A stretch of 28,808 bases of DNA from a virus, in IMG/VR virus record IMGVR_UViG_3300042566_000808, positions 1 to 28,808 of that record. One strand, written 5' to 3'. How positions within the stretch are numbered: position 1 is the stretch's first letter; each line of letters begins with the position of its first letter. The translations under genes and the position numbers were made by a program. Shown in pieces: positions 14,426 through 28,125 of the stretch. The notes beneath the pieces are model-generated. The model made no database searches and was not told where the DNA came from. It saw nothing but the letters and a program-made list of their open reading frames with translations.

Positions 14426-15925
14426 ATGATATTTGGATTTGGAATTCTCGCCACCGCATTACTCCTAAGCGCCGTAGCTGCCTACTACTCAGTGGCAGGT
14501 CTTACTGCTATATTCTCGGCGGCCACAATACCCGTGATCATCATGGGCGGCTCGTTGGAATTGGGCAAAATTGTTGCCACTGTATGGTTGCACAACAACT
14601 GGCGCCGTGCCGGTATTGTGTTCAAATTATATTTGGTACCGGCCATAGCATTCCTAATGATACTGACCAGCATGGGTATCTTTGGCTATTTGTCAAAGGC
14701 ACACTCGGATCAAAGTCTAGTGTCGGGTGATGTGCAAAGTAAAATTGCCATCTACGACGAAAAGATTCGAACAGCCAAGGATAATATAGATGCGAACCGG
14801 AAGGCGCTTAAACAGATGGATGAAGCTGTGGACCAAGTTATGGGTCGAAGCAGTGATGAAAAAGGTGCGGATAAGGCGGTACAAATCCGTCGCTCACAGC
14901 AGAAAGAACGAGCAAGACTTCAATCTGAGATTGCGGCCGAACAGAAAACTATTGCCGCCATTAGCGAAGAACGTGCGCCGATTGCCGCAGAGGTACGCAA
15001 GGTCGAAGCAGAAGTAGGACCAATCAAATACATTGCGGCCTTGCTTTACGGAGACAATCCTGATTCCAATCTGTTAGAACGTGCAGTGCGTTGGATGATC
15101 ATTATGATTGTGTTGGTGTTTGATCCACTTGCTCTCACACTTATCCTTGCATCCAACAAACAGTTTGAATGGGCACGACAAGGCACAGGCGGCTTTGTAC
15201 ACGACGAACCCAAATACGAACCAGACGATGGGCCTCTCACTGAACAACAACTAGAACAGATTCAGGCCAGTGTGGAACTACCAAAAGATCCGCATCCACC
15301 AGGTTGGATGTTTGATAAAAAAGAAGATGAACGTCCATGGAACGAACGTTATCCTTATCTTGCTTGGCCGTTTGAACATTTTAAAAATCTCAAGCCCATG
15401 GTTGCGCCAGATCCTGTCCGAGAAGATAAGGCTGCAATGGCTATTCGGCCCCCGGAAGAAATACCTGGTGTGGAAATACGTCCTTGGACTGACAAAGAAA
15501 TTGAAGCGTTAAATCAACCAGACGAAGATGAAATTGACAAAGAAGCCATACGTCGCTGGAAAATGGATCATCCAGATGATACTATTAAAAGTCAACGAAA
15601 CAAACTAGCCCGAGGCTATATTGATCGATTGCCTTGGCATGATCCAAAATACACACACTCAAGTTTTGGCAGTCAATTTCCTGCAAATCCCGGGCGTGGT
15701 GACACCTTTGTAAAAACTGATCGCATGCCACCACAGTTGTATAAATTCAACGGAGACGAGTGGATTATTATTGACAAAAACTCTACAGATAACTATACTT
15801 ACGACACAGCATACATTGATCATCTTATTGATAAGATTACTACAGGTGAGTATGAACCGGACTTACTGAGTGATATCGAACGAGAACAAGTTGCAGAGCG
15901 TCTTAAACAACCCAACAATTTATGA
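14426..15925 (+). CDS. Membrane protein with long periplasmic/cytoplasmic coiled coil
   Basis: 499 aa. Hydrophobic segments at about 4-25, 26-41, 62-89 and 222-243. Between the third and fourth lies a long heptad-rich coiled coil (about 97-198, Glu/Lys/Arg/Ala rich). The tail from 244 is acidic and Pro-rich, ending with a compact part (PPQLYKFNGDEWIIIDK and a Tyr-rich stretch). The architecture resembles membrane coil proteins of T4-like marine phages with no assigned role; a scaffold at the inner membrane is possible. The ribosome-binding site is poor; coupling from the preceding gene (stop 14418-14420) is likely. Its stop overlaps the clpX ATG. Confidence 0.78.
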   Translation: MIFGFGILATALLLSAVAAYYSVAGLTAIFSAATIPVIIMGGSLELGKIVATVWLHNNWRRAGIVFKLYLVPAIAFLMILTSMGIFGYLSKAHSDQSLVSGDVQSKIAIYDEKIRTAKDNIDANRKALKQMDEAVDQVMGRSSDEKGADKAVQIRRSQQKERARLQSEIAAEQKTIAAISEERAPIAAEVRKVEAEVGPIKYIAALLYGDNPDSNLLERAVRWMIIMIVLVFDPLALTLILASNKQFEWARQGTGGFVHDEPKYEPDDGPLTEQQLEQIQASVELPKDPHPPGWMFDKKEDERPWNERYPYLAWPFEHFKNLKPMVAPDPVREDKAAMAIRPPEEIPGVEIRPWTDKEIEALNQPDEDEIDKEAIRRWKMDHPDDTIKSQRNKLARGYIDRLPWHDPKYTHSSFGSQFPANPGRGDTFVKTDRMPPQLYKFNGDEWIIIDKNSTDNYTYDTAYIDHLIDKITTGEYEPDLLSDIEREQVAERLKQPNNL

Positions 15926-17154
15926 AACAAACCGAAAATTTAGATAATTGCAGTTTTTGTGGCAAACACAAGGATGCAGTGGTTAAATTGATAGTGGGCC
16001 AGGATGTCGCTATTTGCAATGAGTGTGTGGATCTTTGCCAAACGCTCTTGATAGATGATCCAGTGGTTAAACCTGTAGAACATGTTAGCCTTGATCCAAG
16101 AGCCATCTTAAAACATCTTGACCAGTACGTTATAGGACAAGATCGTGCCAAAATGGTGCTGAGTGTGGCCATTGCCAATCACTACAAACGCATACGCAAC
16201 CAAGACAAAAATACTGAAATTGAAAAAGTCAACATCTTGATGTTGGGCCCTACAGGCTCAGGCAAAACATTGTTGGCACGATCAGTGGCTAGATATTTAG
16301 ATGTGCCTTTTGTGATTGCTGATGCCACTAGCCTTACCGAAGCAGGTTATGTGGGCGACGACGTTGAAAGTTTAATTTCTCGCTTGTATGCCGCTTCAGG
16401 CAATGACGTTGAAAAAACACAACAAGGTATTGTGTTTGTGGATGAAATAGACAAGATCAGTCGCCGCAGTGAAAGTCAAAGTATCACACGAGATGTGTCA
16501 GGAGAAGGTGTACAGCAAGCTCTGCTCAAGTTGGTAGAAGGCACCAAGTGCAGAATCACACCAACCGGCGGCCGCAAACATCCCAATGGGGAAACAGTAG
16601 AGATTGACACCACAAACATCTTGTTTATCGCTGGTGGTGCATTTGTGGGTCTAGACAACATTGTGCGCAATCGCATACGTGGTACTGCTATTGGATTTCA
16701 AGCTGAAGTGTCAGTAGACCGTGCTGGTGACCTTGACCAAGTAACACCCGACGACTTGGTTAGATTTGGTATGATTCCAGAGTTTGTGGGACGTTTTCCA
16801 AGCTGGGTTGCACTAAATGAACTTGCACTGGAAGATTTGATATCTATCCTGACAGAAATCAAGCATAGTTATGTGGACCAATATCAGTGGTTGTTTGCAC
16901 AAGATCAAGTTGCATTAGACTTTGATAAAACAGCACTGGAACAGGTGGCTAAAAATACTCTAAAAAACAAAACAGGAGCACGTGGCCTGCATAGCGAACT
17001 GGAACGTGTGCTATTGCCACACATGTTTAATCTAGCACGTTATAAAGAACAAGGCATTGACCAAGTAAAAATCACTAATGACCTGGTAAATACTCCTACA
17101 GAACTAAAGGTACATGATGAACAAATTGCGAGGAAGGTCGGTAATAGTCGCTGA
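15922..17154 (+). CDS. clpX: ClpX, ATP-dependent unfoldase of the Clp protease
   Basis: 410 aa (E. coli 424). N-terminal zinc finger C10/C13/C32/C35 for adaptor and substrate binding; Walker A GPTGSGKT (109-116); pore-1 loop GYVGDD (142-147); Walker B VFVDEID (171-177); RKH loop (218-220); ClpP-docking IGF loop (257-259); sensor 2 GARGL (352-356). All elements for ATP hydrolysis, substrate pulling and ClpP docking appear intact, so it should be active. No clpP is in the window, so it would have to use host ClpP or act as a stand-alone unfoldase. The ATG overlaps the preceding TGA, and its 3' end overlaps bS21 by 41 bp. Confidence 0.97.
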
Positions 17155-17341
17155 TGGTAATGTAGAAAAAGCTCTACGTAAATTCAAGAAAAAAATCCAG
17201 ACATCTGGTATTCTTAACGACCTGCGTGATCGTGAATTCTACACCAAGCCTACTACTGCTCGCAAGCTCAAACGCAGTGCTGCTAAAAATCGCTGGCGCA
17301 GACAACTGGCCGAGCAAGCACTGCCTAAAAAAATGTACTGA
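17114..17341 (+). CDS. rpsU: Ribosomal protein bS21
   Basis: 75 aa (bacterial bS21 is about 70). Core VEKALRKFKKKIQTSGILND followed by LRDREFYTKPTTARKLK is the family hallmark (ALRRFKR...REFYEKPTxxRKR), with a basic tail. bS21 sits on the 30S platform by the anti-Shine-Dalgarno site and influences initiation; phage copies are thought to enter host ribosomes and bias translation. Two ATGs (17114, 17117) follow AAAGG; either may be used. The gene begins inside clpX. The stop overlaps the next ATG (TGATG). Confidence 0.93.
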   Translation: MMNKLRGRSVIVADGNVEKALRKFKKKIQTSGILNDLRDREFYTKPTTARKLKRSAAKNRWRRQLAEQALPKKMY

Positions 17342-17568
17342 TGTACATTGAGTTCCAGTTGTCCTCAGACTTAGTTCGAAACAAACTGAATGCATGGGCA
17401 ATAAAATACAATATCAAATACCGTACTAAAGTATTCAAATACACCTTGCGGGTTACATTTGATTCAGACGAATCTTACACACTATTTGCAATGACGTGGG
17501 TACCACACCCAGAACATCCAGAATGGACAACTTACCGCTTGGTAACTGACCTAAATAATAAAATATAG
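17341..17568 (+). CDS. Small hypothetical protein
   Basis: 75 aa, coupled to bS21 by TGATG. Alternating hydrophobic residues (MYIEFQLSSDLV, FKYTLRVTFDSDESYTLF, TTYRLVTDL) suggest a small beta/alpha fold with a helix at 11-24. Cytoplasmic, no signature. Coupling to bS21 suggests coordinate expression, nothing more. Confidence 0.7.
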   Translation: MYIEFQLSSDLVRNKLNAWAIKYNIKYRTKVFKYTLRVTFDSDESYTLFAMTWVPHPEHPEWTTYRLVTDLNNKI

Positions 17569-17585
17569 TTTTTCTTCGTGTATAA

Positions 17586-17591
17586 TAAATA
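17586..17591 (+). promoter_or_regulatory. Late-promoter-like TAAATA upstream of hsp20
   Basis: TAATAAATAAC around 17583-17593 resembles the T4/cyanophage late box (TATAAATA / CTAAATA). It lies 64 bp before the hsp20 ATG. An overlapping TATAAT (17581-17586) has no -35 partner at 16-18 bp. A hairpin begins 2 nt after the box. Confidence 0.45.
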
Positions 17592-17593
17592 AC

Positions 17594-17621
17594 AATGTAG
17601 TGCCCATAGTGGGGCTACATT
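17594..17621 (+). other. Stem-loop in hsp20 leader
   Basis: AATGTAG (17594-17600) pairs with CTACATT (17615-17621); inner CCC/GGG pairs extend the stem. No U-tract, so a 5' leader structure or weak transcription barrier is more likely than a terminator. Confidence 0.55.
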
Positions 17622-17655
17622 ACAAGTCATCTTGCTTATATAAAGGAGAAAACAA

Positions 17656-18108
17656 ATGACAAAAACTCTCACCCTTCGCGGCTTCGACATTCCATCAATT
17701 CACAAATTTGGTATCGGTTTCGATAACATGTTTGATGAACTCATGCGTGTGAGTGCTCAACAATCCTCAACAAACTATCCACCTTACAACATTGTGCAAA
17801 TCAATGAAGATGAGTACATGATCAGTCTTGCTGTGGCTGGTTTTGGATTGGATAATCTTTCAGTAACCAAGGACAAAAAATTCTTGATCATTGAAGGCAA
17901 AGAGTATCAACCTGATAGCGACAAGATCGTGCCAAACTATCTGCACAAAGGCATCAGCAATAGAGATTTCCGTCGTGAATTCCAACTTGCAGACCATGTG
18001 GAGATCAGCAATGCTCATCTTGAACTGGGTATCTTAAGCGTTTACCTAAAGCGTGAAGTGCCGGAAGACGCTAAGCCAAAGACCATTGCGATCACCTACA
18101 CTTCCTAA
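17656..18108 (+). CDS. Small heat shock protein Hsp20 (IbpA-like)
   Basis: 150 aa ATP-independent holdase. The alpha-crystallin domain spans about 38-140: PPYNIVQINEDEYMISLAVAG then FGLDNLSVT, FLIIEGKE, GISNRDFRREFQLADHV, and a final LSVYLKREVPEDAK. The C-terminal I-A-I (residues about 145-147) is the IxI motif for oligomer assembly. AAAGGAG lies 8 nt before the ATG. Hsp20 is common in T4-like phages of aquatic bacteria, where it probably protects virion proteins during assembly. It has its own leader with a late-type box and hairpin, so it can be transcribed apart from clpX-bS21. Confidence 0.95.
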   Translation: MTKTLTLRGFDIPSIHKFGIGFDNMFDELMRVSAQQSSTNYPPYNIVQINEDEYMISLAVAGFGLDNLSVTKDKKFLIIEGKEYQPDSDKIVPNYLHKGISNRDFRREFQLADHVEISNAHLELGILSVYLKREVPEDAKPKTIAITYTS

Positions 18109-18118
18109 TATAATAGTG

Positions 18119-18124
18119 TAAATA
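18119..18124 (+). promoter_or_regulatory. Late-promoter-like TAAATA upstream of clpS
   Basis: GTGTAAATACAG, 52 bp before the clpS ATG. A TATAAT (18109-18114) sits just upstream but lacks a -35. The box is followed directly by a strong hairpin, as at 17586 and 25276. Confidence 0.45.
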
Positions 18125-18150
18125 CAGTGGCAGCAATCCTGCTGCCACTG
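18125..18150 (+). other. Perfect 11-bp stem-loop between hsp20 and clpS
   Basis: CAGTGGCAGCA, loop ATCC, TGCTGCCACTG: 11 uninterrupted pairs with a tetraloop. The downstream sequence (ATTGTATAG) has no U-run, so intrinsic termination would be weak. It could protect or attenuate the hsp20 message or structure the clpS leader. Confidence 0.75.
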
Positions 18151-18176
18151 ATTGTATAGCAAAGCAAGGAATAGAA

Positions 18177-18488
18177 ATGGCACAGAGCGACACCCGCACA
18201 CGAATCAAACCATCAGAGGCCGTAAAAGAGCCACCTATGTTTCGCGTGGTTTACTTGAACGACAACACAACTTCCATGGAATTTGTGGTTGAAAGTTTGG
18301 TTGAATATTTTGAATACACCCCCGAAACCGCAGAACAAATCACCATTGACATTCACGAAGAAGGCTCTGCTTGTGTGGCAGTGTTGCCTTATGAGATTGC
18401 TGAACAAAAAGGTGTTGAAGTTACTGTGAGTGCTAGATCACAAAACTATCCGCTTCAAATCAAACTGGAACCTGAAACAGTTCAATAA
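18177..18488 (+). CDS. clpS: ClpS, N-degron adaptor
   Basis: 103 aa (E. coli 106). Aligns without gaps to E. coli ClpS from PP(M)F/YxV to PLxxxLE. The N-degron pocket is mostly kept: N28-D29 (E. coli N34/D35), T32 (T38), M34 (M40), V37 (V43), H60 (H66). D36 is replaced by Asn30 and the gatekeeper M62 by Thr56. ClpS normally hands N-end-rule substrates to ClpA-ClpP and blocks some other ClpA substrates. The N-terminal extension (1-18) needed for ClpA activation is short but present. AAGGA precedes the ATG. The 3' end overlaps the convergent phosphoesterase gene by 7 bp. Confidence 0.94.
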   Translation: MAQSDTRTRIKPSEAVKEPPMFRVVYLNDNTTSMEFVVESLVEYFEYTPETAEQITIDIHEEGSACVAVLPYEIAEQKGVEVTVSARSQNYPLQIKLEPETVQ

Positions 18489-19273
18489 TCAATGATTATA
18501 CGCAATGGATGGTACACATATTGTGACCATTGCGTATTATTGCGGCCACGGCAGTTGTTGACATAACGAACACCATCTCGATACTGGTCAACTTTGCCAT
18601 GATAGTGCCCAAAGCACCAGGTGTCAATCTTTCGTTCAGTATCTACGTCTAAGGCATTCAGCATGTGCCTGTTGCCCATAACATTGAATTTAAGTTTATT
18701 AGCTAAATCAATATCATGTGCAATCAACTCAGGCATGGGCACAGTGTGGCTGACTATGACAATTTTTTTTACATCTCTATGAGTTTGTAATTTCTTTACA
18801 CTGGCTATCAAGTAATTGGCATCAATGGTGCTGGCTCGGCGTATGGCATCATAATTGTCGTGTGTGTAGGAGTACTGCTCACACCACCAATCTCTGACTT
18901 CTTCAGGATCAATAGTGTTGTCAAAATCAAAACCCCACCAACCGTTTGTGCCCAAAATAGCCACGCCATTGATTACCACCACATTGTCTTGTAGATACAC
19001 CACATTGGATATTTTTCCAATTTGCCGAGTCATTTCTCGATAGCTGCTGCTAAGATTATCAATAGAATTTACATGTTCGTCATTGCCATCAACATAAAAT
19101 ACTGCTTGATAGCATTGCCCAAGATGTGTTAGTGTCTTATACAGTAAGGATCTGTTTTTACATACGTCACCAATGACCACACAGTGCGGGCTGGTAGCAC
19201 AGCCGGTCCAATCAAACTCACCATCCCAAGTGTCAATGTGTAAATCAGAAATTAAATCAAAGGCAAGTTGCAT
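18482..19273 (-). CDS. Calcineurin-like metallophosphoesterase
   Basis: 263 aa, minus strand. Two-metal phosphoesterase motifs in order: D10-L-H12, GDV (35-37), GNDEH (63-67), SHT (175-177) and GHYH (222-225). The usual GNHE is GNDE here, as in some family members. It could act on a nucleotide, phosphoprotein or nucleic acid; the substrate cannot be read from sequence. It is convergent with clpS (7-bp overlap). On the minus strand TAAATA (19285-19280) lies just before the ATG, so the message may be nearly leaderless; no ribosome-binding site is seen. Confidence 0.88.
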   Translation of the reverse strand: MQLAFDLISDLHIDTWDGEFDWTGCATSPHCVVIGDVCKNRSLLYKTLTHLGQCYQAVFYVDGNDEHVNSIDNLSSSYREMTRQIGKISNVVYLQDNVVVINGVAILGTNGWWGFDFDNTIDPEEVRDWWCEQYSYTHDNYDAIRRASTIDANYLIASVKKLQTHRDVKKIVIVSHTVPMPELIAHDIDLANKLKFNVMGNRHMLNALDVDTERKIDTWCFGHYHGKVDQYRDGVRYVNNCRGRNNTQWSQYVYHPLRIIIDY

Positions 19274-19279
19274 GATACA

Positions 19280-19285
19280 TATTTA
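19280..19285 (-). promoter_or_regulatory. Late-type TAAATA before the phosphoesterase start
   Basis: Minus-strand TTTTAAATATG, 6 nt before the ATG at 19273. With T4-like geometry transcription would begin about 1 nt before the ATG. Confidence 0.35.
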
Positions 19286-19298
19286 AAAGGAACACAAC

Positions 19299-19655
19299 AT
19301 GAACATAATATTTGGCGATGCTATTGAACAAATTGCAACCACTCACACTGTTTTGGAATTGGATACATTTAAACTAATGCCGTCTGAACAACTAATAAAA
19401 GCCTATTGTGTTGTTGATACAATACCATTGACAGAATTTTCAATCTTAGAAAATAATAAAAAAATACATCAACAACTGATAACACAGTATCAACAACAAA
19501 ACTGGGAATTTTGCAAAAGTGCAGCAACTGCATTGCTGGGCAGTTGGAACGGTGAACTAGATACTTTTTATCAACATCTACTAGAGAGAATGACTAAATG
19601 CCAAGAAGCTCCGGATGACAGTTGGTACTACTGGATTGTCAAGAATTCTGATTGA
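19299..19655 (+). CDS. Conserved-looking hypothetical phage protein
   Basis: 118 aa. AAGGA lies about 8 nt upstream of ATG 19299. Blocks: MNIIFGDAIEQI, TVLELDTFKL (18-27), AYCVVDTIPLTEF (35-47), NWEFCKSAATALLGSWNGELDTFY (68-91), a pattern I associate with small T4-like phage proteins of unknown role. Cytoplasmic, alpha/beta. Divergent from the phosphoesterase (25 bp between starts) and convergent with the glycosyltransferase-like gene (17-bp overlap). Confidence 0.72.
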   Translation: MNIIFGDAIEQIATTHTVLELDTFKLMPSEQLIKAYCVVDTIPLTEFSILENNKKIHQQLITQYQQQNWEFCKSAATALLGSWNGELDTFYQHLLERMTKCQEAPDDSWYYWIVKNSD

Positions 19656-20925
19656 TCCACTTGTAAAAATCGTCTATGTCTTGTTGTGTTCTGCCTGGTT
19701 TGACATTGTTATAGTATTTTCCCATCTCAGGATTTAGGCTGGCAATTTCTCCCAGTTTTTTGTACCACATTCCAGTTCGGTTTTGATTCATTATGTCAAT
19801 TGCTTGATTGAGATTGTGTTGATACTCATCAACAACCATGTCATGAAAGTTGGATGAAAAAAACCATTTTTTGTTGTAGTCGGCAATTTCATAAAGTTTC
19901 TCCCATAACAAAGTTTTGTCAGCACGATCTAATTTGGCTATCCTATTCATTTCTGCAATGATCATGTGCAGTCGCGTTGCCGAATCTGTTTCTTGATCGT
20001 AATCTTCGTTTATGATTGGACTGAATGTTTTAAACCCATAGTCTTTTAAATACGCTAAACTTCCTGGTGTAGCTACTGCAATAAACGGCATACCACATGC
20101 TATGGGTCTTAACATTTTTTCTGTAAGGTGATTTCGTTGATCATCAAACAACGTTTCTAAAACTACTTCGATGCCTGCACTACCATAATCATCGTGGTTG
20201 TAGTCTGCACTAGCTGCGGAAGAATGTGTGTTTAATGGCAGGTGAGATTCCAATGCTGTTGAAATTTTAAAATTGGCATTTTGATATTTGTGATCTTGAT
20301 AATGTGTGTCTGAATCAATTGGATTGAAACTTGTTTTGCAATAGGTTGTTAGACTATTTGCGCACAATAATTCTGCAAATTTAAGTCTGTATTCTCTAGT
20401 GCCGGACCAAGCACGATTGTATATTAAAAAATCTGTTTGAATGTTTTTGTGCTTTAGTAAAGGGTCATGCTCGGCAAATCTAAACCAATCTCTAGCTATC
20501 AGTGCATGACTCCAGTAATAAACAGGTACAAATCCTACAGCCTGATATTTTTCCACTTCTGGGCTGTTTTTTTCACTGTGGCATAACATCATTAGATCAT
20601 AGCCAGAATATGCAGTAGGAATAACTCCTCTAATGTGCATTTGAGACAATTGTGCTAACATTTCGGAATGAGCTTGTTGATTAAATCTTTCAAAGGCCAA
20701 AGCAGAAATACTATCGTTACTATACAAATCAAATTGTAAAGGTTCTTGATCGTGAAAGATTATAGCCGGAGTTGTCTGCCCGTAAAACCAGGCAACGTGG
20801 TCCGTAAAGTAAAACTTTAAATCAGCCAATTTTTTTGAGCCATATGGTTTAAAGCCATAAATTATGATATCGTGCTTGCACAAGTCGTGCAAAAAATTAT
20901 ATAATCTATCTAAAGGAACGCTCAT
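19639..20925 (-). CDS. Glycosyltransferase-like protein
   Basis: 428 aa, minus strand. The C-terminal half has blocks of phage glycosyltransferase-like proteins: GIEVVLETLFDDQRNHLTEK (the E..LF...LTEK donor-site pattern), MLRPIACGMPFIAVATPGSL, and YGFKTFSPIINEDYD. The N-terminal half (IIIYGFKPYGSKKL, IIFHDQEPLQFDLY) could be the acceptor domain. The sugar and acceptor are unknown; the neighbouring sugar dehydrogenase suggests a common glycan. The ATG at 20925 overlaps the plus-strand dehydrogenase ATG (CATG); with no ribosome-binding site there, an internal TTG (20892) is an alternative start. Confidence 0.72.
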   Translation of the reverse strand: MSVPLDRLYNFLHDLCKHDIIIYGFKPYGSKKLADLKFYFTDHVAWFYGQTTPAIIFHDQEPLQFDLYSNDSISALAFERFNQQAHSEMLAQLSQMHIRGVIPTAYSGYDLMMLCHSEKNSPEVEKYQAVGFVPVYYWSHALIARDWFRFAEHDPLLKHKNIQTDFLIYNRAWSGTREYRLKFAELLCANSLTTYCKTSFNPIDSDTHYQDHKYQNANFKISTALESHLPLNTHSSAASADYNHDDYGSAGIEVVLETLFDDQRNHLTEKMLRPIACGMPFIAVATPGSLAYLKDYGFKTFSPIINEDYDQETDSATRLHMIIAEMNRIAKLDRADKTLLWEKLYEIADYNKKWFFSSNFHDMVVDEYQHNLNQAIDIMNQNRTGMWYKKLGEIASLNPEMGKYYNNVKPGRTQQDIDDFYKWINQNS

Positions 20926-22165
20926 GGCAAAAATTGGTTTTATTGGAATTGGTAAACTTGGGTTAGACTGTGCCGAAGTAATGGCAGAAAAACATCAAGT
21001 GTGGGGATATGATATTTACCCACGAACAAGTGACTCGGTAAAAGTATGTGGGATTGAAGAACTAGTAACCGAAAGTGAGTGGATTTTTATTGCTGTACCA
21101 ACTCCACATGCACAAGGCTATGATGGATCAATTCCCAGTTCGCATATGGAACCTCGAGACTTTGGGCATGATGCTGTAATTGATGCAATTAAGAATGTCA
21201 ACAAGTACGCAACAACATCTAAGAAAGTTGTGTTAATTTCCACAGTACTACCGGGCACCACACGCAAATATTTTTATCCGTTGTTGGATAAAAAACATCA
21301 GTTCTTGTACAACCCTTACCTCATTGCCATGGGGTCAGTCAAGTGGGACATGGTCAATCCTGAAATGATTATGATAGGCACCGAAGACGGCAACCCTAAC
21401 GCATTGGCTGGTGAACTTCGCGCACTGTATGACACAGTGATGCAGAACAATCCACGCTATGAGATTGGCACCTGGGACGAGTGCGAAGCTATCAAGATCT
21501 TCTACAACACTTTTATCTCAGCCAAGGTTGGTCTTGTGAACATGATTCAAGATTTTGCCATGAAGATTGGACACATCAACGTTGATGTTGTGACTGATGC
21601 TTTAGCACGTTCAACCATGCGCATCATGGGACCCAAGTACATGACAGCTGGCATGGGAGATGCAGGTGCTTGCCATCCACGTGATAATATTGCTCTGCGT
21701 TGGTTAGCACAAGAATATGACATTGGATATGATTTGTTTGATACTGTGATGCATGCCCGTGAGATTCAAGCCAAAAATTTGGCAAATTATTTGGTTCACC
21801 TCAGTGCGATGAACGACGACATGCCTATTGTGATTCACGGCAAGGCCTACAAGCCTGACGTAGAATACTGTATTGGCTCATACTCAACGCTGATCGGGCA
21901 CTATGTTGAACTGGCAGGCCGGTCAGTTGTTTATGTGGATCCATTGGCTGACAATAAAGACAAAGTTGTTGAGTCTGTTGATGAATCTGCAATCTTCTTA
22001 TGGGCGCACAATCGCAAGATCACCTATGAATACACAGGCGATCAAGCCGACACCAAACCATATTGCGATATTTTACCCGGCAGTATTATTGTTGATCCAT
22101 GGCGCAAGTTAGAATCTACCAACGACGTTGAAGTTGTACACTATGGCAACACACGTGGTGCTTGA
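20924..22165 (+). CDS. UDP-sugar 6-dehydrogenase (UDP-glucose/GDP-mannose dehydrogenase family)
   Basis: 413 aa. Oxidises a nucleotide sugar at C6 to the uronate with two NAD. The Rossmann G8-x-G10-xx-G13 and D30 bind NAD; VPTPH (58-62) and STVLPGTT (106-113) line the site; K191 in EAIKIFYNTF and the catalytic C250 in AGACHPRDN match the family K and C (GSCFPKD in UGDH). C-terminal nucleotide-sugar domain has IHGKAYKPDV (family GxAFK). The start ATG 20924 has AAAGGA 6 nt upstream. Whether the substrate is UDP-Glc, UDP-ManNAc or GDP-Man cannot be decided. The 3' end overlaps the next gene by 23 bp. Confidence 0.93.
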   Translation: MAKIGFIGIGKLGLDCAEVMAEKHQVWGYDIYPRTSDSVKVCGIEELVTESEWIFIAVPTPHAQGYDGSIPSSHMEPRDFGHDAVIDAIKNVNKYATTSKKVVLISTVLPGTTRKYFYPLLDKKHQFLYNPYLIAMGSVKWDMVNPEMIMIGTEDGNPNALAGELRALYDTVMQNNPRYEIGTWDECEAIKIFYNTFISAKVGLVNMIQDFAMKIGHINVDVVTDALARSTMRIMGPKYMTAGMGDAGACHPRDNIALRWLAQEYDIGYDLFDTVMHAREIQAKNLANYLVHLSAMNDDMPIVIHGKAYKPDVEYCIGSYSTLIGHYVELAGRSVVYVDPLADNKDKVVESVDESAIFLWAHNRKITYEYTGDQADTKPYCDILPGSIIVDPWRKLESTNDVEVVHYGNTRGA

Positions 22166-22661
22166 GTACCATATTGAACGATTCTGGGATGATGAGTTCA
22201 AAACATTGGACTACATCCAGGAACCATTTAATGATCCAGTGAGCGTACAACAATGGACCGCACTAGGCTATACCAGCAGGTTCTGTGGTGACCTTTGTGA
22301 CATGCGCCATCGCCTGCCTGCATGGACCAGCAAGTTTGTGGAAATGTACGAAGCTCAAGGCTGGCGAGACATAGGTTTGGCGTTTTATCGCATGAGCACA
22401 GACACAGTGATGCCAGTACATCAAGATCTGTACAAACGCTACATTGAAGTGTTTGATCTTCAAGGACAAGAAACTTCTATCCGCCGGGCTTTGTTATTGT
22501 TGGAAGACTGGAAACCCGGACACTATCTGGAAGTAGATGGCCGACCCTATGTTGACTGGAAGGCTGGCCACACAGTTGAGTGGATATATGATGCACCGCA
22601 CATGGCTGCCAATATTGGTCTCGAAGACCGCTATAGTTTACAAATTACTGGACATGTATGA
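22143..22661 (+). CDS. Putative Fe(II)/2-oxoglutarate-type oxygenase (HxD...H fold)
   Basis: 172 aa from ATG 22143 (a TTG at 22128 would add five residues). The second half looks like a double-stranded beta helix: VMPVHQDLY supplies H93-x-D95, APHMAANIG supplies a distal H153, and R163 in EDRYSLQITG is placed to hold 2-oxoglutarate. RALLLLEDWKPGHYLEVDGR is a typical strand pair, similar to aspartyl/asparaginyl beta-hydroxylase-like phage proteins. Substrate unknown; position between a sugar dehydrogenase and an amidinotransferase suggests a small-molecule or glycan role. It overlaps both neighbours (23 bp; ATGA). Confidence 0.68.
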   Translation: MATHVVLEYHIERFWDDEFKTLDYIQEPFNDPVSVQQWTALGYTSRFCGDLCDMRHRLPAWTSKFVEMYEAQGWRDIGLAFYRMSTDTVMPVHQDLYKRYIEVFDLQGQETSIRRALLLLEDWKPGHYLEVDGRPYVDWKAGHTVEWIYDAPHMAANIGLEDRYSLQITGHV

Positions 22662-23572
22662 TATCGAGTTTTGATGAGTGGAGCCCACTAAAAAAAATAG
22701 TAGTAGGTAGTGCAACTGACGCAAACTGGCCAGTGAACGATCCTGTGTTTTCTCGAGAATCAGAAAAAACCACTTGGACGGAAACACCTGTTCCACGTGG
22801 CCCTGTTCCTCAGCGCATAATTGATGAAGCCAACGAAGATCTAGATATTCTGGCAACAACTTTAATGAGTTTAGACGTAGAAGTTGTGCGCCCAGATCTA
22901 CTCAACTTCCAAACTCATGATGGCATGTACAATTATTGTCCTCGCGACCGATTCCTTGTATACGGTTCAACCATAGTAGATCCTGCTATGATGTATCCTT
23001 GTAGAGACATGGAACTGCAATGCTACCACGATATTGTGGATTCTGCTGACCACTACAAGTTCATGCCACGCAACGAAGGCATGACTTTGGACGCTGCCAA
23101 TGTGTGTCGTCTTGGCGACAAAATGTTGTATTTGGAATCAGCGTCAGGCAATCAAAAAGCCTACCACTGGTTACGCGAGCAGTTTCCAGATGTCACAATA
23201 GAATTGTGCAACTTTTATGCTGGTGTACACATTGATTCAACCATTGTGCCACTACGTGAAGGTTTGGTCATGTTAAACGGAAGCAGAGTGGGATTTGATA
23301 CTGTGCCCCGAGTGTTTGATGGTTGGCACAAGATTTGGATAAACGATGTTGTGGCCCAGGACTTTTACCGTTATCCATATGCATCAAAATGGATTGCCAT
23401 GAACATGTTAGTGGTAGATCCGCACACTGTGATCTGCGATGCTGACCAAACTGAATTGATCAAAACACTAAAGAGTTATCAATTTGAAGTTATACCATTA
23501 CGGTTAAGACAAAGCCGCACTCTTGGAGGCGGCTTTCATTGTGTTACGTTAGATTTAGTACGTCAACGTTAG
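22658..23572 (+). CDS. Amidinotransferase (glycine/inosamine amidinotransferase family)
   Basis: 304 aa. Transfers an amidino group, normally from arginine, through a Cys-amidino intermediate. Catalytic triad by family comparison: D145 (TLDAANV; GATM D254), H191 (GVHIDST; GATM H303), C295 (GGGFHCVTLDL; GATM C407). CPRDRFLVYG (94-103) is the conserved propeller entry strand. The N-terminus SSFDEWSPLKKIVVG fits the family start. Shorter than human GATM (423 aa) and near StrB1-type and arginine-deiminase-fold bacterial enzymes. Acceptor amine unknown. Starts in the preceding stop (ATGA) and ends convergent, 4-bp overlap, with the next minus gene. Confidence 0.9.
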   Translation: MISSFDEWSPLKKIVVGSATDANWPVNDPVFSRESEKTTWTETPVPRGPVPQRIIDEANEDLDILATTLMSLDVEVVRPDLLNFQTHDGMYNYCPRDRFLVYGSTIVDPAMMYPCRDMELQCYHDIVDSADHYKFMPRNEGMTLDAANVCRLGDKMLYLESASGNQKAYHWLREQFPDVTIELCNFYAGVHIDSTIVPLREGLVMLNGSRVGFDTVPRVFDGWHKIWINDVVAQDFYRYPYASKWIAMNMLVVDPHTVICDADQTELIKTLKSYQFEVIPLRLRQSRTLGGGFHCVTLDLVRQR

Positions 23573-23832
23573 ACGACCTCGGTTATGCTAACAACATTGA
23601 CCGTGTCGCTAGGCAATTCATTAATAAAATTGCCATAATCTTCTGCTGCTGCCAAAGTGGTAAAGTCTCGCTGTCGTTGTTGATGCCCATCGGGGAGAGG
23701 AGTAGGATCTTGAATGTATTCTGGGTCAGTTAATCCAGCAGCGGCTAACGTATCAATTTTGGCTTTGATAAGTGCTAGTTCTTCACCAGGAAAAGTTTCC
23801 CAGTCTATTGCATTTGTTGTGACTCTCCACAT
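23569..23832 (-). CDS. Small hypothetical phage protein
   Basis: 87 aa, minus strand. ATG 23832 is chosen because GGAG lies 6 nt upstream; a TTG at 23844 would place the ribosome-binding site inside the gene. Sequence MWRVTTNAIDWETFPGEELA, a helix with KAKIDTLAAAGLTD, DPTPLPDGHQQRQRDF and a final EDYGNFINEL...VNVVSITEV. Looks like a compact alpha/beta protein; no function recognised. Its promoter could be the CTAAATAC box 23 nt upstream. Confidence 0.72.
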   Translation of the reverse strand: MWRVTTNAIDWETFPGEELALIKAKIDTLAAAGLTDPEYIQDPTPLPDGHQQRQRDFTTLAAAEDYGNFINELPSDTVNVVSITEVV

Positions 23833-23854
23833 AGTGTTCTCCAATTTGGTAAAG

Positions 23855-23860
23855 TATTTA
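23855..23860 (-). promoter_or_regulatory. Late-type CTAAATAC for the minus-strand gene
   Basis: Minus-strand GCTAAATACTT, 22 nt before the ATG at 23832. It matches the cyanophage late box CTAAATA and gives a normal leader containing GGAG. Confidence 0.5.
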
Positions 23861-23871
23861 GCTCATTTTGG

Positions 23872-23900
23872 TAGACTTTTAATTAAATTCAGTATACAAT
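23872..23900 (+). promoter_or_regulatory. Weak sigma70-like promoter before uvsE
   Basis: -35 TAGACT (23872-23877), 17-bp spacer, -10 TACAAT (23895-23900), inside an AT-rich stretch. Expected start is within 1-2 nt of the ATG at 23907. Confidence 0.35.
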
Positions 23901-23906
23901 ACACAC

Positions 23907-24938
23907 ATGACTACACACTCACGTTTTGGCTTTTGTTGCAAATGGCTCAATGACCCCGAGGAAACTGGGGGCATGAAAGTCAATGCTGTGGACCGTGACA
24001 TAAACGGAAGATCAACTACCATGCGCTGGCTGCGTGAGCATGCTGCCGAAGCTGACCAGCGTCAGTGGGATATCATGAACCATAACGCTGCCGCGGCCCT
24101 TAAAATGGTTGAGCGTGTGGGTGCAATGGAACCCGAGCGCAGAATGGTGCGACTGGGATCAGAAATGTTACAGGGCTATACAGAACCCTCGTGGATCAAT
24201 TGGTGGCAACGACGTGAAATTCAAGATCATTGCGAACGCATATTCGCGCCGGTTGGTGACGCTGCTCGGCGTTTGGGTGTTCGGCTTTCCTTCCATCCAG
24301 GGCAATTTTGTGTGCTGGCAAGCGAATCGGATGAAATCGTTGAACGATCCATTTTGGAATTCGAGTATCATGCAGATATGGCCCGGTGGATGGGGTATGG
24401 AAACACGTATCATGATCACGGATTTAAGATTAACGTACACTTATCGGGCAAGGGCGGTCCTGCTAAGTTTTTGCGTACCTTGAGCAGACTAAGTACAGAA
24501 GCCCGAAACTTAATCACAATAGAAAATGACGAACTTACAAATGGACTTGACGTTACTCTTGCCGTGGCTGATCATGTGGCTCTTGTGCTGGATATCCATC
24601 ACCACTGGATCAATACCGGCGAATATATCACCCCTACGGACCCACGTGTGCAACGGGTTATTGAGTCTTGGCGTGGTGTGCGTCCTACACTACACTACTC
24701 AGTTAGTCGTGAAGACTGCCTTGTTGACCACTCTCGCACAGTAAAGCCTGACTTGAGTGCGCTGTTGGCACAGGGCTACAAAAAGCAAAAACTGCGAGCC
24801 CACAGTGACTTCTATTGGAACGAAGCTGTGAATGATTGGGCACTGACATTCGCTGATCAATTCAACATTCAGTGCGAGGCCAAAGGCAAGAATCTGGCTC
24901 GGGATCAATTATACCAGCAATGGCTGGCCACTCGATGA
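23907..24938 (+). CDS. uvsE: UV damage endonuclease UvdE/UvsE
   Basis: 343 aa. A metal-dependent TIM-barrel nuclease that nicks 5' to UV photoproducts in an alternative excision pathway. Family motifs: RFGFCC at the start, LSFHPGQFCVL (127-137), INVHLSGKGG (175-184), ENDE (206-209) and DIHHH (229-233), which carry the metal ligands (His, Glu, Asp). Length and order match bacterial UvsE. T4 itself uses the unrelated DenV glycosylase. No ribosome-binding site precedes the ATG, and a weak promoter (TAGACT-17-TACAAT, 23872-23900) would start transcription at the ATG. Confidence 0.94.
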   Translation: MTTHSRFGFCCKWLNDPEETGGMKVNAVDRDINGRSTTMRWLREHAAEADQRQWDIMNHNAAAALKMVERVGAMEPERRMVRLGSEMLQGYTEPSWINWWQRREIQDHCERIFAPVGDAARRLGVRLSFHPGQFCVLASESDEIVERSILEFEYHADMARWMGYGNTYHDHGFKINVHLSGKGGPAKFLRTLSRLSTEARNLITIENDELTNGLDVTLAVADHVALVLDIHHHWINTGEYITPTDPRVQRVIESWRGVRPTLHYSVSREDCLVDHSRTVKPDLSALLAQGYKKQKLRAHSDFYWNEAVNDWALTFADQFNIQCEAKGKNLARDQLYQQWLATR

Positions 24939-25225
24939 ACAACATTTTAACCGGCATCTTTGAATGGATCAAAAGTGATTACAAGACCCACCCTTTTAGG
25001 TTTGTCATGGAAGTATTGGCTTGGGTTATCAGCATTGGTTGTAGTATTACAATGGCGGCCACTCTACCAAATCCACCCTTCTTTGTGCTTTACCCTGTGT
25101 GGATCACTGGTTGCACTATCTATGCCTGGGCTGCTTGGACTCGCAGAAGTTTTGGGATGTTGGCTAACTACATTCTGCTCACGACTATTGACACCATTGC
25201 GTTGATTCGACTGGTGTTTTTATAA
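24935..25225 (+). CDS. Small multi-pass membrane protein
   Basis: 96 aa; ATG overlaps the uvsE TGA. Hydrophobic segments at about 24-43 (VMEVLAWVISIGCSITMAA), 47-66 (PPFFVLYPVWITGCTIYAWA) and 73-95 (FGMLANYILLTTIDTIALIR), separated by Pro and a WTRRS basic turn. Pattern is that of a three-helix inner-membrane protein; a half-transporter resemblance is not strong enough to name. Cotranscribed with uvsE. Confidence 0.72.
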   Translation: MNNILTGIFEWIKSDYKTHPFRFVMEVLAWVISIGCSITMAATLPNPPFFVLYPVWITGCTIYAWAAWTRRSFGMLANYILLTTIDTIALIRLVFL

Positions 25226-25309: not shown

Positions 25310-26986
25310 ATGGACAGATATAGAGAACTTGAACAACTCATAACACAATTTAGAAGAAACTTACCCCAAGACCAACACTACGCAGACAGACTGGCAGAAG
25401 AACTAGAACTAATAAGAGATCAAAATTTTGCTCGACATTTTTTGCGAGTGAGAGAAATACTAGATCTCACAACAGACATACCACACATCACAAGAGGATC
25501 AGCAGGATCCAGCCTGGTGTGCTGGCTCATGGGCATCAGTGATCTTGATCCTGTGGCAGAAAACATCCCCATAGCACGTTTCATGAATCCCAAACGTGAT
25601 GACTTACCCGATATTGACCTAGACTTTCCACATTGGCAACAGGCCACGGTGATGAATAGAATATTCAAACGATGGCCTGGACGAAGTGCTAGAGTTTCAA
25701 ACTATGTAATGTACAAGGAAAAGTCAGCCAAGAGAGAAGCAGCCAAAAGACTAGGCGCCAAAGGCACACTCAAACGAGGTTTTGAATTCAATCAAGTGCT
25801 ACCGCCAGAAGAAATAGAAGAAGCCGAACGTGTAACAGCCAAACTCATGGGCAAGAAACGCTGTATATCCAAACACTGTGGAGGCATCTTGATTTTTGAT
25901 CGTGCTGTGCCCAAGAGCCTGATCAACGGCGACAATCAAATCTTGTTGGACAAATACGAAACTGAAGATCTTGAACACTTCAAAATTGATATCTTGGCCA
26001 ATCGCGGATTAAGCCAACTGTGGGAAATTGATCAGCGTCCGTTAACTGACTATCCCGAACATGATCAAGCCACCAGCGATCTGCTGGGACGTGGTGATGT
26101 GCTGGGTGTGACGCAGGGCGAGTCACCGGCCATGAAAAGACTGTTCAGGGCTCTCAAAGTAAAGAGCCGTAGTGACTGTACCTTGGCCACTGCACTGATC
26201 CGACCAGTGGCCACACAGGGTCGTCGCAAGGCATCAGCGTTTCAAGACTGGTCAGCAGATACCATACAGCAAGACACAGTGGTATTTGAGGATGATGCCA
26301 TAACCATGATTGCTGATATCTTGGAATGCGATATGTACACCGCGGACATGTGGCGCAGAGCCTTTGCCAAACGCAACGAAGAAAAGATCTATGAATTCAT
26401 GCAGTTGATCGGGGATCATCCCAAAAGAGACAGTGTGCTGAGTGCCTTGAGAGAACTCAGTCATTTTGGTCTTTGCCGCGCTCATGCCACTAATTTAGGT
26501 AGATTGATCTGGGCCTTGGCCTATCAAAAGGCACACAATCCTGAACAATTCTGGAGAGCCTGCTTGAAACATTGTGAAGGCAGTTACAGTCGTTGGGTGT
26601 ATTATCAAGAAGCCAAATTGGCCGGTGCTGTGCATGCTCCAATGGAGGGAGGTGAGTGTGAGGAACTGGCTCGTACTGGTCGTTGGACCAGCGGTAGATT
26701 TATTCCGGCCTGCACAGAAATACGACGTCCGGGTGAAATAGAATTTTTGGGACTGGTTGCCAATTATCGAGTGTTCAAAAGCGGTGCCAAAGATTACATT
26801 ACCTTTGCTACCCTGGGCACCGGCAACGGACGTTACTTGGATGTGATACTACCACATGCTATCTCATTCTCAGATCAACCAATTCTATGGGGGAAAGGCC
26901 GGTTGGACTATACAAACAGTTCAGAATGTGTTAAAGTATACAAAAGCAAACGCATGCGACTGCAAGACATAGCACACATTGATTAA
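25310..26986 (+). CDS. Short family C DNA polymerase (DnaE-like) without PHP domain
   Basis: 558 aa (E. coli DnaE 1160). The palm and fingers of DNA polymerase III alpha are recognisable: RGSAGSSLV (62-70; DnaE GRGSGAGSLV), LPDIDLDF with D103/D105 (DnaE D401/D403), HFKIDILANRGL with D227 (D555), GVTQGESPAMKRL (DnaE GVFQLESRGMK), and FGLCRAHATNLGRLIWALAYQ (fingers H-A-x-x). All three catalytic aspartates remain. The N-terminal PHP domain and most C-terminal modules are absent; IEFLGLVANYRVF-KSGAKDYITFATL may be an OB-like remnant. T4-like phages normally use the family B gp43, so this may be an accessory or repair polymerase. Coupled to the next gene by TAATG. Confidence 0.9.
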   Translation: MDRYRELEQLITQFRRNLPQDQHYADRLAEELELIRDQNFARHFLRVREILDLTTDIPHITRGSAGSSLVCWLMGISDLDPVAENIPIARFMNPKRDDLPDIDLDFPHWQQATVMNRIFKRWPGRSARVSNYVMYKEKSAKREAAKRLGAKGTLKRGFEFNQVLPPEEIEEAERVTAKLMGKKRCISKHCGGILIFDRAVPKSLINGDNQILLDKYETEDLEHFKIDILANRGLSQLWEIDQRPLTDYPEHDQATSDLLGRGDVLGVTQGESPAMKRLFRALKVKSRSDCTLATALIRPVATQGRRKASAFQDWSADTIQQDTVVFEDDAITMIADILECDMYTADMWRRAFAKRNEEKIYEFMQLIGDHPKRDSVLSALRELSHFGLCRAHATNLGRLIWALAYQKAHNPEQFWRACLKHCEGSYSRWVYYQEAKLAGAVHAPMEGGECEELARTGRWTSGRFIPACTEIRRPGEIEFLGLVANYRVFKSGAKDYITFATLGTGNGRYLDVILPHAISFSDQPILWGKGRLDYTNSSECVKVYKSKRMRLQDIAHID

Positions 26987-27297
26987 TGGCCCGACTACAC
27001 ATATATCCCCATAACGAACCACAACAAGATCTACACATAGTGGCAGATCCTGCTGCACTGAGAGCACTGGCACAGGCTCTGTTAAGTGTGGCAAAAAATC
27101 CAAACAGTTTTGAACGAATTAAATTGCACACAAGTGATGGTCATGAATACACTGCCATGATTGTGTCTGGTGTGGGCGAAGAGGAATGGCAGAGTATCCC
27201 ACCGGCCTATGCTGAATCAACAGTTCCTACAATATCTACGTTAGAAGACTATCACAGCCTAAAAAAACAGTTGACAGAGTCACAACAAAAACTGTAA
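26986..27297 (+). CDS. Small hypothetical protein coupled to the DnaE-like gene
   Basis: 103 aa, start sharing one base with the polymerase stop (TAATG). An amphipathic helix (DPAALRALAQALLSVAKN, 21-38) follows a beta strand (LHIVA), then strands ERIKLHTSDGHEYTAMIVSG; the C-terminal 25 residues look helical (LEDYHSLKKQLTESQQKL). The strand-helix-strand core is loosely like Imm32-type folds, a weak resemblance. Translational coupling hints at a polymerase partner, unproven. Confidence 0.65.
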   Translation: MARLHIYPHNEPQQDLHIVADPAALRALAQALLSVAKNPNSFERIKLHTSDGHEYTAMIVSGVGEEEWQSIPPAYAESTVPTISTLEDYHSLKKQLTESQQKL

Positions 27298-27330: not shown

Positions 27331-28125
27331 ATGGAGAAAACATATCGCAGCATCTTTATCTCCGATGTTCACCTAGGCACCAAAGAGTGCCAAGCTGATC
27401 GTCTAAACAATTTCCTCAAGCACAACACCTGCGAATCCTTGTACCTAGTGGGCGACATCATTGACGGTTGGAAGGTGCAACAAAACCGATTGAGATGGAA
27501 GCAAAGCCATACCAATGTGGTTCGCAGGATCTTAGGCCATGCCAAACGCGGCACACGAGTTGTGTATGTGGCCGGCAATCACGACGAATTTTTACGCCCA
27601 ATGATACCTGACGGTATCACCTTTGGACATGTGGAAGTTCGCAATCAATGTGAACATGTGGGCGCAGATGGAAAACATTATTTGGTCACACATGGTGACT
27701 TGTTCGATGGTATTACTAGACTGGCACCATGGCTGAGTTTTCTAGGAGACAAAGCATATGATTTTATATTATTTCTCAACACTAAGTTTAATTGGATACG
27801 TCATCGCATGGGTTTTGGGTACTGGAGTATTAGCCTGTATCTTAAGCATCGCGTTAAAAAAGCAGTAGATTTTATATTTCAATTTGAACGCAATCTCACT
27901 GACTACTGTAAAAAGCGTGGATTTGATGGCGTAATATGTGGACACATTCATCATGCTGAAATCAAAACTATAAATGGCGTTGTTTACATGAATGATGGCG
28001 ACTGGGTTGAGTCATGCACAGCATTGGTAGAACATCATTCAGGTGCATGGGAAATTGTAACATGGACTCAAAAAAATGACAAAGAAGATACTGATAGTAA
28101 CAGACAACTTGCCGGATCAAATTAA
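27331..28125 (+). CDS. LpxH-like metallophosphoesterase (UDP-2,3-diacylglucosamine diphosphatase type)
   Basis: 264 aa. Motifs: SD12-V-H14-L-G-T, GDIIDGW (41-47), GNHDEF (82-87), THGD (120-123), CGHIHHA (203-209). The order and the DVHLG-T-..C-QAD and GDIIDGW blocks match the LpxH-related group found beside envelope glycosyltransferases in many proteobacteria. LpxH itself cleaves UDP-diacylglucosamine in lipid A synthesis; the exact substrate of this subgroup is uncertain. Hydrophobic/aromatic 140-185 could be a membrane-contact lid. ATG 27331 has no proper ribosome-binding site. Its 3' end overlaps the glycosyltransferase by 50 bp, implying tight coupling. Confidence 0.88.
   Translation: MEKTYRSIFISDVHLGTKECQADRLNNFLKHNTCESLYLVGDIIDGWKVQQNRLRWKQSHTNVVRRILGHAKRGTRVVYVAGNHDEFLRPMIPDGITFGHVEVRNQCEHVGADGKHYLVTHGDLFDGITRLAPWLSFLGDKAYDFILFLNTKFNWIRHRMGFGYWSISLYLKHRVKKAVDFIFQFERNLTDYCKKRGFDGVICGHIHHAEIKTINGVVYMNDGDWVESCTALVEHHSGAWEIVTWTQKNDKEDTDSNRQLAGSN

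Follow-up and report, generated by a model that had tools for sequence, protein, structure and literature searches.

Phage T4 carries the textbook single-polymerase replisome. The T4-like jumbo phages of group 2.2 encode a family B polymerase together with a minimal Pol III alpha subunit that is split in two, and work on one strand or repair has been suggested as the role of this split enzyme (Iyer et al. 2021, PMC7824862). Its N-terminal unit is the NTP-binding part and its C-terminal unit the Mg- and template-binding part (PMC7824862). In B. subtilis, a division of labor is known in which DnaE extends RNA primers and then hands over to PolC (PMC5627055).

Here we describe an unsplit family C polymerase core, called mini-DnaE, encoded in IMGVR_UViG_3300042566_000808. 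The window analyzed is this entire 28,808-base IMG/VR virus record, which is a fragment. No earlier description of the unsplit form was found in the open-access literature, the only literature that could be searched, and we regard an unsplit, PHP-less, OB-bearing DnaE as a new variant beside the published split minimal Pol III.

The mini-DnaE gene and its product

The gene codes for an intact family C core with palm, reduced thumb, fingers and OB-fold. The features of the locus, in window coordinates, are as follows.

25310..26986, + strand: mini-DnaE, a 558-aa family C DNA polymerase core without PHP domain (Pfam, alignment, Foldseek, fold comparison)
25364..25999, + strand: palm and reduced thumb (Pfam DNA_pol3_alpha, PF07733, aa 19-230, E 3.8e-37)
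25493..25501, + strand: R62-G63-S64 phosphate-binding motif, corresponding to E. coli R362-G363-S364 (alignment)
25610..25618, + strand: D101 and D103, catalytic aspartates 1 and 2, corresponding to E. coli D401 and D403 (alignment)
25982..25990, + strand: K225 and D227, corresponding to E. coli K553 and the third catalytic aspartate, D555 (alignment)
26042..26404, + strand: fingers (Pfam DNA_pol3_finger, PF17657, aa 245-365, E 1.5e-10), with R349-R350 equivalent to E. coli R709-R710
26714..26962, + strand: C-terminal OB-fold, aa ~469-551 (model, alignment, fold comparison)
26984..26988, + strand: TAATG stop/start overlap in which the p103 ATG overlaps the mini-DnaE stop, a likely site of translational coupling
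26986..27297, + strand: p103, a coupled 103-aa ORF and clade-specific probable partner (neighborhood counts)

An earlier note, made from the letters of this DNA, had proposed a stand-alone DnaE core without a PHP domain. This reading is upheld by the Pfam search, which matches palm and fingers in the 558-aa ORF and gives no match to PHP. The three catalytic aspartates and the RGS block named in the same note map onto E. coli DnaE (1160 aa), and the alignment also places R90. D101, D103, D227, R62-G63-S64, K225 and R349 are invariant in all 39 aligned homologues, which share 35-97% identity. In the best PHROG match, aa 18-434 align with positions 358-838 of a DNA polymerase profile that is 1190 positions long, and the top-scoring NCBIfam model is the error-prone DnaE family.

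Compared with E. coli DnaE, the thumb and fingers are shorter, and the YQEQ motif is replaced by FEDD or, in some family members, by CEDD. The alignment has gaps in place of the (HhH)2 region, the QADMF clamp-motif region and the tau domain at the C-terminus, the first two falling between the fingers and the OB-fold; the loss of the beta-clamp motif suspected in the earlier note is thereby borne out. With FEDD in place of YQEQ and no clamp motif, mini-DnaE might have low activity or a different role. The OB-fold after the fingers is a retained DnaE feature and an addition to the earlier description.

An AlphaFold2 model built from 38 sequences (mean pLDDT 74.5, pTM 0.74) is weak around the active-site loops. 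In a Foldseek search with this model, DnaE structures rank first (7pu7, E 6.6e-15; Taq and E. coli). VIA-align gives a Z of 24.2 against 2hnh (367 residues aligned, 4.2 A) and a Z of 25.4 against 5lew. Within the OB-fold region, aa 473-551 reach a Z of ~8 to PriB and SSB, and whole-chain DnaE alignments extend into it. Judged by these sequence and fold comparisons, mini-DnaE is a catalytically complete and probably active family C DNA polymerase that does not proofread.

Homologues and phylogeny

The start, length and stop of the ORF are common to about 70 homologues in viral contigs. The dN/dS values of 0.03-0.05 between the window gene and four close relatives indicate that mini-DnaE is under strong purifying selection, and no PHP domain was found in records of 337, 320, 484 and 157 kb. 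These observations bear on whether the gene might be a remnant, or the 3' part of a split, frameshifted or truncated full-length DnaE, as the earlier note had allowed. The short length would agree with such an origin, and no other support for it was found. However, the start, length and stop shared by the homologues, the low dN/dS and the lack of PHP in the four large records rule it out, leaving it a negligible probability.

Candidate stretches that match the family query by tblastn number at least 525. In a set of 50,697 phage records, the only close match is LR756508.1, a 484-kb uncultured phage (35.8% over 98%). A scan of bacterial genomes gave only matches of 24-28%, to DnaEs, and in the eight ORFs examined the matching part is preceded by about 236-410 aa; a bacterial origin of the mini form was rejected on these grounds. 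In a palm-fingers tree of 29 rows, the mini clade is supported at 100/100, sits on a long stem and lies outside DnaE1, DnaE2 and the sampled phage DnaEs. The tree program issued a long-branch warning, so we claim only the separateness of the mini clade and name no sister group.

Polymerases in the carrier genomes

The T4-like setting recognized in the earlier note is confirmed by a 337-kb relative, G001, which has matches to gp15, gp17, gp18, gp20, gp21, gp23, gp41, gp43 and gp44, as well as to gp46, gp47, gp55, UvsX and UvsW. A gp43-like family B polymerase (PolB) is found in G001, G002 and LR756508.1 (three records of 320-484 kb) and in G025 (151 kb). The PolB of G001 is an 889-aa frame in which, by eye, the exonuclease-like and polymerase motifs are kept. 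In 19 loci, PolB is encoded no more than 2.5 kb from mini-DnaE. Since genomes with mini-DnaE encode PolB, mini-DnaE is a second polymerase, as had been supposed, and in these four relatives it does not stand as sole replicase in a genome lacking gp43. PolB was absent from the other searched records, all of them fragments of 46-157 kb, and from the window, a 28.8-kb fragment.

A family A polymerase, as a candidate for the main replicase, was looked for in ten records without a match and was rejected. A Y-family polymerase (IMS domain) was likewise not found in four large records, which are possibly incomplete. The Pfam model of the T4 sliding clamp (PF02916) had no match in the records and none in the controls either. 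In LR756508.1:260623-266900 (L103-L105), PolB is spread over two open frames, one of 1022 aa and one of 625 aa, that are several kb apart, and is perhaps split or intein-bearing.

Candidates for both units of the split Pol III also occur in these genomes. The N-unit candidate is a 185-aa, RGS-only protein (phrog_11127) present in G001, G002 and G008, the last being the contig from which the window's closest relative comes, and similar PF07733 matches are found in G004 and G005. The phrog_11127 protein is also carried by phages 121Q, PA5oct, Atu_ph07, CBB and SCTP-2, where its gene has a GroES-like or a head-morphogenesis gene as neighbor, along with a clamp loader in genomes that have one annotated. 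The C-unit candidate is a 206-aa G001 protein with DIDID...KID...QSHAVSYA motifs and counterparts in 121Q, CBB and Atu_ph07. A 192-aa member near mini-DnaE matches phrog_11778, DNA polymerase, and a C-unit lies within 6 kb of mini-DnaE in 17 loci. The C-unit was not picked up by the mini-DnaE profile; it was detected via weak finger-domain matches and has the same size of ~190-217 aa in several phages. The two units in G001 are located at L099 1147-1704 (G001:117005-117595) and at L257 (G001:17433-18050). From size, domain and host list, we infer that the phrog_11127 and phrog_11778 proteins are the published split units. G001 has PolB and both split units as well as the unsplit mini-DnaE, and this would give one phage three polymerase systems.

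Genomic neighborhood

A total of 159 loci were surveyed, and locus counts are not independent because some contigs are represented twice. The labels "freshwater" and "marine" stand only for two groups defined by identity to the window (above and below 68%, respectively) and not for sampling sites; grouping at 85% identity yields 6 freshwater and 10 marine clusters. A DnaB/gp41-type helicase is encoded near mini-DnaE in 50 of the 54 marine loci, in several orientations and for the most part no more than 4 kb away, and a T4-type primase in 33 marine loci. Counted by cluster, with identities confirmed, the helicase is nearby in 8 and the primase in 6 of the 10 marine clusters, and PolB is near mini-DnaE in one of the 6 freshwater clusters. 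Helicase and primase are also near mini-DnaE in L011 and L012, which are 89-90% identical to the window. The window itself has neither beside mini-DnaE, the neighbors there being UvdE, a metallophosphoesterase and a glycosyltransferase.

Helicase and primase differ in order and strand among loci, which suggests a repeated or maintained association and not one frozen segment. Shared expression timing could be an alternative cause, given that proximity of phage genes may come from expression class alone. Another repeated neighbor of mini-DnaE is a DUF6267 protein, encoded close by in 43 loci of the marine group and in part of the freshwater group (L169, for example).

The earlier note had taken the nearness of uvsE as consistent with damage repair. 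UvdE is indeed upstream of mini-DnaE in the window and in L002-L006, but in L007-L009 and L025 it belongs to a block that has been rearranged separately, and it is not near mini-DnaE in the remaining loci. Thus, this neighborhood is kept in close relatives only and a functional link to UvdE was rejected. Window positions 15922-18488 hold a run of genes for an AAA+ ATPase, a ribosomal protein S21 homologue, Hsp20 and an ATP-dependent-protease-family protein, and the stretch from this run to UvdE (~15900-25200) is inverted and rearranged relative to mini-DnaE in L007, L008, L009 and L025. The window also carries a UDP-glucose dehydrogenase gene (20864-22165) and two metallophosphoesterase genes, at 18482-19273 (- strand) and at 27331-28125 (+ strand), the latter followed by a family 4 glycosyltransferase gene.

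The coupled protein p103

The suggestion that the 103-aa protein is a partner of the polymerase has gained ground, as p103 behaves like one: its gene is TAATG-coupled to mini-DnaE and is present in all 6 freshwater clusters, and in none of the 10 marine clusters. The AlphaFold2 model of p103 has a mean pLDDT of 86.3, and its comparison with the PDB yields no confident fold (top Foldseek match at E 0.5, highest Z 3.9). Weak, sub-threshold matches to Imm32 occur in 5 of 18 members. In freshwater phages, p103 is probably a dedicated cofactor of mini-DnaE.

Possible functions of mini-DnaE

Judging by gene position and the precedent of B. subtilis DnaE, the likeliest role of mini-DnaE would be primer extension. 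We place the protein at the fork because its gene is clustered with those for a replicative helicase and a primase and, in one clade, with PolB. Since it often adjoins helicase or primase genes, mini-DnaE probably helps to start or extend strands and is not a broken gene. Mini-DnaE would extend RNA primers for a short distance at the fork, after which gp43 would take over, and in freshwater phages the co-translated p103 would assist as a dedicated cofactor. We hold with moderate confidence that mini-DnaE is an accessory polymerase of this kind beside the phage family B replicase. A larger scheme is offered only tentatively, and we consider it rather doubtful: a fork with three polymerase systems, namely a proofreading PolB, the split minimal Pol III, and the unsplit mini-DnaE, which would play in phages the part of Pol alpha or of DnaE in B. 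subtilis and extend primase products before gp43 takes over, with p103 in freshwater phages.

The main rival to primer extension is lesion bypass, in which mini-DnaE would serve as a translesion or repair polymerase like ImuC or DnaE2, recruited by p103 or by the fork. The enzyme has no proofreading domain, its top NCBIfam model is an error-prone one, UvdE adjoins it in the window and close relatives, and the lack of a Y-family polymerase in the four large records would leave the bypass role vacant. However, the UvdE linkage is not conserved, and the neighbors across the mini-DnaE family are replicative. Moreover, plasmid DnaE2 genes adjoin those for ImuA and a Y-family (ImuB-type) partner, neither of which is seen around mini-DnaE. 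The comparison with ImuC/DnaE2 drawn in the earlier note thus finds no affinity in the tree, which puts the mini clade outside DnaE2, and no Y-family polymerase in the four large records. Overall, we view lesion bypass as unlikely.

The core might instead be used for some other reaction, either as a nucleotidyltransferase or as a decoy or scaffold. The change of YQEQ to FEDD or CEDD and the loss of several domains point in this direction, but mini-DnaE keeps the catalytic triad, the fingers and the OB-fold as well as those RGS, Lys and Arg positions that were compared, which makes a non-polymerase function improbable. It is more improbable still that some lineages, the marine clade for instance, use mini-DnaE as their main replicase. 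In G003, a 157-kb marine contig, PolB has no match and mini-DnaE lies beside helicase and primase genes. However, this contig starts at the head protease gene and is without gp20, 43, 44, 46, 47 and 55 together; the absence of all these genes at once indicates that G003 is incomplete. In addition, the four PolB-positive records include the three largest.

Comparison with known systems

A widespread group of large T4 relatives has an extra, unsplit polymerase core of bacterial type, often beside helicase and primase genes. Mini-DnaE offers a natural test of the minimum of Pol III alpha that is needed for synthesis, and of whether a division of labor among polymerases arose in phages.

Like bacterial DnaE1 (Pol III alpha of E. 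coli), mini-DnaE has palm, fingers, OB-fold and catalytic residues, but it is without PHP, (HhH)2, clamp motif and C-terminal domain and forms a separate, long-stem clade. It resembles DnaE2/ImuC in its top NCBIfam model and in having no C-terminal extension after the OB-fold, whereas DnaE2 proteins are ~1050-1085 aa long with an N-terminal half before the palm that mini-DnaE lacks. The DnaE replicases of Streptomyces phage Paradiddles and Pseudomonas phage JJ01 are also family C polymerases carried by phages, but these are proteins of 1036-1158 aa with an N-terminal half, and they are not nested with the mini clade. The split minimal Pol III, like mini-DnaE, is a PHP-less family C core found in T4-like jumbo phages that have a family B replicase as well. 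The split enzyme is made from two distant genes (~170-185 and ~190-217 aa), whereas mini-DnaE is one 558-aa ORF that has its own RGS motif and aspartate triad together, a larger thumb and fingers, and an OB-fold. Mini-DnaE is, in these respects, the intact counterpart of the published split minimal Pol III.
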